From assembly GCA_022709105.1 (NCBI GenBank), contig JAKIXL010000011.1, positions 1-13,841 of the forward strand: a stretch of DNA of 13,841 bases, given 5' to 3'. How positions within the stretch are numbered: position 1 is the first letter of the stretch; every line of letters starts with the position of its first letter. A program made the translations under genes and the position numbers. The notes under the pieces are model-generated. The model worked only from the letters and a program-made list of their open reading frames with translations. It searched no databases and was not told where the DNA came from. Positions 5,556 to 7,945 of this stretch are shown one piece after another. This DNA is from Thermoplasmatota archaeon. Its GTDB lineage: Archaea; Thermoplasmatota; Thermoplasmata; Methanomassiliicoccales; Methanomassiliicoccaceae.

Positions 5556-6608
5556 GTGGATTCCAAGGTATGCCCGGACTACAGCAGCAGGAGGTACCTG
5601 TCGGCCGCGGAGGCAGCGCGCTATCTCGGGACATCGGTCCGAGAGCTCCATCGCTTGGTCCGAGAGGACAAGGTGCCCATGATGATATCAGGAAGCGGTC
5701 AGCAGCGGTTCGACCTGGCTGCCCTGGGAGGAGCGGCCGCCGGGGAGGTCCGCCCCGCGATGGCCGGTGGGAGAGAGATGATATATATCCATGGCACCGG
5801 CCAAGAGGTCGTCTGCTCGACCTCGGCGGACATGCGCGGGATCGAGGACGGAAGCATTAACCTCGCGCTCACCTCCCCACCTTACTTCAATACCAAGATG
5901 TATTCCCCACATCCTCTGCCAGGCGACCTGGGCGATGTCCACTCGATGGAGGAGTGGTTCGAGCAGATAGGGAAGGTCTGGGCCGAGGTGCTCCGGGTGC
6001 TCCAGCCCGGTAGAAAGCTTTTCATCAACATCATGAACCTTCCAGTGCGGTTGGAGGACGGGAGCTTCCGGACCCTGAACCTGGTCGGCCGCACCGTGCA
6101 GCAGTGCGAGGACATTGGCTTCATCTTCAAGCGGGACATCGTGTGGCAGAAGACCAACGGGGTCCGCGCACCGTTCGGCACATATCCCTATCCGGGAGGC
6201 ATATTGCTGAACAACATGCACGAGTTCATCCTGGAGCTGGAGAAACCCTGCACCCGGGCAGAGCGGTCCCGCAAGTATGCCCACATCTCCCCCGAGGACC
6301 GCGAACTGTCCAGGCTGGAGAAGGATTTCTAGCTCATGGCCCCTCGGGGAAGCGGGGACCGGAGAGACCATGTGGCGCCTTTCCCCATGGAGCTGCCTTT
6401 GCGGCTGATACGGGCGTACAGCTACCGGAGCGAGAGGGTCCTCGATCCTTTCCTTGGTTCGGGGACCACCCTTCAGGCCGCGGCGGCGACCGGCCGCAAC
6501 GGGATTGGCTTCGAGATAAGCCCCTCGATCGCCGCCGAGGCCGTCAGGTCCTTGAGGGCCCTTGGTGCCGAGGCCGGCATGTCCTCCGGAACGGGGGGAG
6601 TCGGCTGA
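5556..6608 (+). CDS. HTH-fused DNA methyltransferase, interrupted by an in-frame TAG
   Basis: One reading frame encodes a MerR/excisionase-type helix-turn-helix (about residues 15-60, YLSAAEAARYLGTSVRELHR) joined to a beta-class N6_N4_Mtase domain. Motif IV is TSPPY at 106-110, a form common in N4-cytosine enzymes. The SAM-binding motif I, VLDPFLGSGTT, is at 295-305. Codon 259 (6330-6332) is TAG, and the frame resumes at once with LMAPRGSGDRRDHVAPFPMELP, so the C-terminal SAM-binding part is lost unless the TAG is read through. With the TAG counted the product is 350 residues. From recalled family members the TAG aligns with a tryptophan before the HPAPFP region. No restriction endonuclease lies nearby, so it is an orphan. 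GTG is the only suitable start. It is either a recent nonsense pseudogene or recoded. Confidence 0.8.
6330..6332 (+). other. In-frame amber codon inside the methyltransferase
   Basis: TAG follows LSRLEKDF and is followed without frame change by LMAPRG. A single G-to-A change from TGG (Trp) explains it. If the host encodes the pyl system it could also be decoded as pyrrolysine. The base is seen in the sequence; its decoding is inference. Confidence 0.7.
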
Positions 6609-7945
6609 GCGGCAAAGGCCCCCTTGGCTCGCCTTGGACCGAAGAGCGTCCCCGGACCCGTCCGGTCACCAAGCTCAAGGAGGACCTCGAAGCAGATGTG
6701 GCGATAATCGGCGGTGGCATATCTGGCCTGGCCACCGCTTACATGCTGATGAGGACCAGCGATCTGCGGGTGGCGGTCCTGGAGGCCGGGCTGGCCGGAC
6801 ACGGCGCCACCGGCAACAACGGAGGCCAGGCGGTGGAAGGCACGGAGGCAGGGTTCAGGGAGATAGCATCGATCGTGGGGGAGGAGAGGGCGGTGCAGGG
6901 ATTCAGGGAACTGGCCGGGGCGATGGATGAGCTCGATAGAATGGTAGGCAAGGTCGGCCCTCCCGGCATGCTCGCCAAGGTCGCGGGCAGAATGGGCATC
7001 GCTGACCAGGGGCTGCTCGAACAGAGGATCGAGGACCTCAGGGCAAGGAGGGCCGCGGGGCTGGACAGCGGCAAGGTGCATTTCGCCGACGATGCCCTCA
7101 TCGGGCTGCAGGCGGAAGGGCCTCGAGAACCACGGGCCCTGCTCGCTCGGCAGTTGTGGTCCAAGGACCAACGGTACATCGCATTCATTGAGATGAGGAT
7201 GGGCCTCATCAACACCTGGGACCTGGTAGAGAAGATAGCGTCCCATCTAAGGTCCGAGGCCCCGGAGCGGTTCAGTATCTATGAGCGTTCCCCGGCCCGC
7301 CTTCTGAGGCTGAGCGAGGAGGACGTGACCATAGGTTGCAACGGCAGGATCATGGTTGCCAGCTCAGCAGTCCTGTGCACGAACGGCTATCTCTGCCCGC
7401 GCATCGAGGCATGCTCGCCCCCGTTCGTCAAGGGCAAGGTCAAAGGTGTCGTTGGCTACATGGTGGGGTTCGAGGATGGCAGCGGCCCTGAGGGGGCAAG
7501 AGCGTACTTTCCGGGCGGTAAGGACTATTATTACCTATCCAGGAAGAAGACCCGTACAAACTGGCTGACCGCGGTCGGAGGGCCCGAGGGGTCGATCAGC
7601 GGCGAGTACGATGAGGGTACGGTCTACCATCCGGACGCCTATTCGCAGCTGGGGTCGTTCATCTCGTCCACCCTCGGCCTCTCATACCCTCCCGCCAGAA
7701 GGTGGCAGGGGCTGATGGGTTACACCTCGACGGGCATCAGGATCGCTGGGCAGGACCCGCGGCTGCCCGCTCTTTATTACAACATGGGGTGCAACGGAAT
7801 AGGCATACTTTCTGCCCTGGCCGGGGCCAGGAGGCTCGCGGACGATATGGGCGGAGAGGACCAGGAGCCAAGCATGTTCGACCCTGAGGCCATGGCCGGG
7901 GCCAGGATCACAATGGACGGTCACGAACGGGCGCATCGTCCTTGA
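6605..7945 (+). CDS. FAD-dependent oxidoreductase, DAO (glycine/D-amino acid oxidase) family
   Basis: A DAO-fold flavoprotein of about 446 residues. The Rossmann FAD site is ADVAIIGGGISGLATAYML (from residue 30) followed by the acidic end of strand 2, VAVLEAG, then GATGNNGGQ, equivalent to the GASGRNGG loop of DadA/PuuB-type enzymes. The C-terminal RRWQGLMGYTSTGIRIAG and YNMGCNGIGI segments close the FAD site as in this family. Substrate is unknown; amines, amino acids or their N-methyl forms are typical. The start is unusual: coding-like N-terminal sequence (SPWTEERPRTRPVTKLKEDLEADV) lies upstream of the first standard start, GTG at 6698. A CTG at 6605 sits in a CTGA overlap with the methyltransferase stop, preceded by a G-rich GGGGGGAG. 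I therefore place the start there, tentatively; GTG 6698 would give 415 residues. It overlaps the convergent gene by 38 bases. Confidence 0.82.
   Translation: MSGKGPLGSPWTEERPRTRPVTKLKEDLEADVAIIGGGISGLATAYMLMRTSDLRVAVLEAGLAGHGATGNNGGQAVEGTEAGFREIASIVGEERAVQGFRELAGAMDELDRMVGKVGPPGMLAKVAGRMGIADQGLLEQRIEDLRARRAAGLDSGKVHFADDALIGLQAEGPREPRALLARQLWSKDQRYIAFIEMRMGLINTWDLVEKIASHLRSEAPERFSIYERSPARLLRLSEEDVTIGCNGRIMVASSAVLCTNGYLCPRIEACSPPFVKGKVKGVVGYMVGFEDGSGPEGARAYFPGGKDYYYLSRKKTRTNWLTAVGGPEGSISGEYDEGTVYHPDAYSQLGSFISSTLGLSYPPARRWQGLMGYTSTGIRIAGQDPRLPALYYNMGCNGIGILSALAGARRLADDMGGEDQEPSMFDPEAMAGARITMDGHERAHRP

Follow-up and report, generated by a model that had tools for sequence, protein, structure and literature searches.

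A DNA methyltransferase gene with an in-frame TAG and a nine-codon loss, probably a recently disrupted allele, in a relative of Methanomassiliicoccus

Genes interrupted by TAG and predicted to encode pyrrolysine (Pyl) proteins have been described in the order Methanomassiliicoccales. In Candidatus Methanomethylophilus alvus, where TAG makes up 1.6% of stop codons, 16 further TAG-interrupted genes are predicted as Pyl proteins, and in M. luminyensis, with 11.3% TAG stops, the methylamine methyltransferases are the only predicted Pyl proteins (PMC4153887). The locus analysed here likewise belongs to this order and shares with the Ca. M. alvus genes a single in-frame TAG that homologues do not have. 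It differs from them in also lacking nine residues; TAG often serves as a stop here, and searches of the assembly found no pyl gene. The encoded enzyme is of the beta type, and its nearest solved fold is TTHA0409 (2zie, 2zif and 2zig); entries 2zif, 2zie and 2zig head a fold search with the intact near-identical protein P0002, and the best PDB sequence match is 2zie (E 1.5e-32). In contrast to PF01555 beta-type enzymes including TTHA0409, this allele is interrupted and nine residues short, and it has an HTH-like part before the catalytic domain.

The gene occupies 5556–6608 on the forward strand of the window, by which we mean the whole 13,841-nucleotide stretch under analysis. It forms one frame from a GTG at 5556 to a TGA at 6606–6608, with a sole internal stop, a TAG at 6330–6332. 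The initial annotation had described a methyltransferase frame split by a single in-frame TAG, and this description is borne out, since the Pfam profile N6_N4_Mtase (PF01555) is matched in both pieces. The separate pieces score 54.3 and 66.9 bits, and the read-through frame, designated P0001, scores 120.7 bits over residues 101–329 (cut-off 26.7), a significant match that places it in the beta-type DNA methyltransferase family. The upstream piece (5556–6329, forward strand, 258 codons), delimited by the ORF, Pfam and alignment with relatives, combines an HTH_17-like N-terminus (residues 14–50; 25.4 bits, slightly under the cut-off of 27) with the motif IV side, including TSPPYF, and covers profile positions 1–110. 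The downstream piece (6333–6608, forward strand), delimited by the ORF and Pfam, contains the HVAPFP region and motif I (DPFLGSGTT) before the terminal TGA and covers profile positions 159–219; a possible separate ORF of 90 codons starts in it at ATG 6336, three bases past the TAG. Although the motifs follow one another as TSPPYF, HVAPFP and DPFLGSGTT when the frame is read through, the stop and the nine missing residues mean that no single translatable frame holds the complete catalytic domain. A scan of the window with ARAGORN gave no tRNA. An oxidoreductase-like gene, labelled by eye, lies 3′ of the methyltransferase, both within window 5556–7945; its best match in genome G008 adjoins the methyltransferase of that genome (37% identical), and G011 and G013, both lacking the methyltransferase, have 33% matches only.

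Alignment at codon 259 with close homologues confirmed that the TAG falls at a conserved tryptophan, as the initial annotation had stated, and uncovered a loss that it had not seen: nine conserved residues (27 nt), directly before this Trp, are absent from the frame. P0001 was aligned with 121 proteins, namely the best 120 of 3003 from a protein search (E ≤ 1e-20) and P0122, drawn from the 28 additional proteins that a second search, with the upstream piece, listed. All 121 have a ten-residue block at full length. It opens with Trp in every case and closes with Trp in 120; P0122 alone differs, being out of frame there. An in-frame TAG is thus not conserved at this site in relatives. Where homologues have ten codons, our frame has one, the TAG (6330–6332, forward strand), at the place of the final Trp codon. 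The junction at which the nine codons are absent lies at 6329–6330 (forward strand) according to codon and DNA alignments with congeners, and it could equally be placed after the TAG, because relatives have a Trp codon on both sides. In the codon alignment, all ten loci L003–L012 have both Trp codons with the block between them and no stop there; L012 lacks the N-terminal part, and L013 and L014, two pieces on one G003 contig, were left out. One TGA was counted in L006, at residue 341, beyond the domain. The same 27-nt gap is seen in DNA alignments with L074 and L076. The simple substitution of TGG by TAG that had been proposed is therefore ruled out by the nine additional missing residues. 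A look for repeats bordering the loss showed that, in relatives, only a short word is common to the two Trp codons, and a repeat search of L003 gave nothing decisive.

The lesion is present in this assembly and absent from every aligned homologue, and the near-identical protein P0002 (359 aa, on a contig of 2821 bases, in a cluster of 14 sequences) is intact. Apart from the block, which P0002 has whole, a single substitution (A242T; Ala in our frame, Thr in P0002) separates it from the read-through frame. As in a recent pseudogene, a near-identical intact copy and the relatives (10 of 10 family loci) are free of the lesion, which, if not an artefact, must postdate the separation from P0002. 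Further disruptions of the gene had been named at the outset as evidence against the initial reading; this allele carries one, the 27-nt in-frame loss beside the TAG, and the near-identical protein is intact. The source genome, G000, contains no second copy of the methyltransferase, its only other match being 37% identical. At a threshold of E ≤ 1e-30 the gene has a match in 12 of the family's 15 genomes; the exceptions are G009 (67% complete) and the near-complete congeners G011 and G013 (99%). Since G011 and G013 are without a copy, loss of the gene is tolerated, and it seems dispensable within the genus. Relative to L003, dN/dS is about 0.16 for the upstream and 0.19 for the downstream piece, so both halves have a selected look, as would be expected alike of a very young lesion, of an artefact and of a gene that remains in use.

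Predicted structures were compared for the intact and the shortened protein. The AlphaFold model of P0002 (24-row alignment, mean pLDDT 77.9) has a helix at residues 256–263 and a strand at 267–269, and the missing residues, 259–267, make up most of this helix and the beginning of the strand. In the model of the read-through frame, with Lys set at the TAG (29-row alignment, mean pLDDT 73.5), neither the helix nor the strand appears, and the remaining listed elements follow in unchanged order. Local confidence at residues 251–260 drops from 88 in P0002 to 64 in the read-through model, in which residues 259–275 lie below 50. Going by these models, the read-through frame has likely lost its activity.

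The site has two further features. P0122 (236 aa, on a contig of 317,967 bases) loses its frame right after KNSDV, ending in the Val of the block, at the same Trp codon as our lesion and by a different change; its start falls after the HTH part. The upstream piece has 1037 homologues, and of the 120 listed only P0122 is clearly shorter at this end; in P0023 (287 aa) it is the N-terminus that is shortened. The TAG also creates a CTAG site (6329–6332). CTAG is scarce in the contig carrying the lesion, C22 (10 against 25.6 expected), as in L074 (4 against 14.0) and L076 (5 against 15.4), less scarce in L075 (19 against 27.7), and not scarce in the congener stretches L077 (34 against 34.9) and L078 (34 against 32.6). 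Orphan N4-cytosine methyltransferases specific for CTAG (M.MjaI, M.MthZI and HVO_0794) are likewise described as beta type with SPPY (PMC5867850). One homologue, P0082, has the name MjaI in its source.

These data make it probable that the locus is a very recently disrupted allele of an HTH-containing beta-type DNA methyltransferase gene, with a loss-of-function lesion, in a relative of Methanomassiliicoccus. The 27-nt in-frame loss and the TAG at the remaining Trp codon would have arisen in one complex event or in two, translation would end after residue 258, ahead of the HVAPFP and motif I part, and no active enzyme would be made from the allele. We infer that the lesion exists in the cell and abolishes activity. 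Of the three readings offered by the initial annotation, a recent nonsense mutation comes closest, with the 27-nt loss to be added to it. The main rival, possible though rather unlikely in our judgement, is that the metagenome-type assembly is wrong at this point, through an error of consensus or assembly or as a strain chimera, and that the living population carries the intact gene. The assembly of G000 comprises 319 contigs, is 80% complete and has 4.38% contamination. Runs of N lie inside genes, the frame break at the window end (13841) being a 10-N scaffold gap of this kind, and the mtmB piece near an end of contig C35 contains a change of frame. These properties speak for an error, as do the existence of the intact P0002 and the occurrence of two differences at one point. 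On the other hand, the lesion lies inside a contig, away from any edge or gap. Setting the N gap aside, comparison with two congener loci showed no further lesion in C22, and none was seen in the 13 L109 ORFs compared with contig C11. Assembly errors are therefore not frequent, which counts against a high general error rate. The tolerated absence of the gene from G011 and G013 and the second broken relative, P0122, also speak for a true lesion. When the window genes were compared one by one with congener loci L074 and L075, with wrong-frame ORF rows set aside by eye, no other in-frame stops or frameshifts were seen. Two apparent breaks against L108 on C11 turned out to be wrong-frame ORFs: at one of them L109 aligns in a single frame, and the other has a better match on the opposite strand (69% over 283 residues).

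To follow up the suggestion of pyrrolysine decoding, we searched the source genome and its family for the pyl system. Profile searches and a pylT probe found no pylS, pylB or pylT in the 80%-complete G000, while all six congeners were positive. PylS_Cterm exceeded its cut-off in the six congeners and in 7 of 8 other family members, PylB did so in 12 of 15 genomes including the six congeners (in G003 it was in two pieces, below the cut-off), and the pylT probe matched in 13 of 15, the same six among them; in each search G000 and G002 were without a match. PylS_Nterm (TIGR03912) was found in 0 of 15 genomes, which says little here because Methanomassiliicoccales are known for a PylS without the N-terminal part. 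With a DNA probe that spanned pylC and pylD, G000 gave a match to the probe's ramA part only, and beside a ramA-like gene on contig C5, examined as a pyl-cluster flank, no pyl gene was seen. MtmB is present in 15 of 15 genomes. In G000, mtmB is represented only by a C-terminal stretch (C35:8–621, L080) that lies where contig C35 begins and shifts frame once, and the region holding the TAG in relatives falls beyond the contig end; the MttB and MtbB families had no match in this genome. At 80% completeness, an unassembled pyl island looks the same as a lost one. Genome G002 (98% complete) has an mtmB with an in-frame TAG (C16:26432–27781), yet none of the searches for pylS, pylB and pylT matched there; in this family, then, not finding these genes in an assembly is no safe sign.

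The use of TAG as a stop was assessed with our own gene finder, based on codon usage, on 149,903 bases of contigs of this genome. It predicted 141 genes, 127 with their stop inside the contig, ending in TGA (88), TAG (26) or TAA (13). One TAG is the site under study, and TAG thus terminates 25 of the 126 other genes (about 20%), far from the proportion in Ca. M. alvus and above that in M. luminyensis. Routine suppression is therefore unlikely. The earlier observation that TAG ends the genes it labelled echD, NYN and MFS was correct for all three. No other convincing TAG-interrupted gene was found in this 150-kb sample, judged by codon usage alone, without homology support.

Insertion of pyrrolysine or another residue at the TAG, yielding a shortened methyltransferase, is accordingly improbable to a high degree. 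It would accord with the pyl matches in all six congeners, the mtmB piece in the genome itself, the downstream frame that is still open and the further Pyl genes predicted in Ca. M. alvus (PMC4153887). The proposal nevertheless lacks a clean Trp-to-TAG swap, nine conserved residues being gone beside the TAG; pylS, pylB, pylT and the MttB and MtbB families were not found in G000, TAG is a common true stop, and Trp occupies the position in all of the 121 homologues but the frame-broken P0122. M. luminyensis, whose TAG stops come with no predicted Pyl protein outside the methylamine methyltransferases, also weighs against it (PMC4153887). What leaves pyrrolysine a small share of probability is the presence of pylS and pylB in all six congeners, together with the 80% completeness of the assembly and the position of the mtmB piece at a contig end. 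Our literature search found no work joining pyrrolysine, Methanomassiliicoccus and DNA methyltransferase. We give hardly any credence to a fuller version, in which a shortened and active enzyme would tie DNA modification to methylamine-driven pyrrolysine supply; if it were true, the break in P0122 would mark the spot as a recurrent switch-off point of the enzyme. A natural two-chain enzyme, with a stop at the TAG, a restart at ATG 6336 and assembly of the two chains, is also very doubtful. Methyltransferases of two chains are known and the ATG opens an ORF directly past the stop, but at the break the block is absent, not just split, and among the listed upstream-piece homologues only the frame-broken P0122 is clearly shorter at this end.

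In a known kind of enzyme, the disrupted allele would represent one more lost dispensable methyltransferase, or else an assembly error. For pyl-bearing lineages, the case indicates that a lone in-frame TAG should be aligned with close relatives before pyrrolysine is called; here a deletion beside the TAG, invisible without such an alignment, alters the reading.
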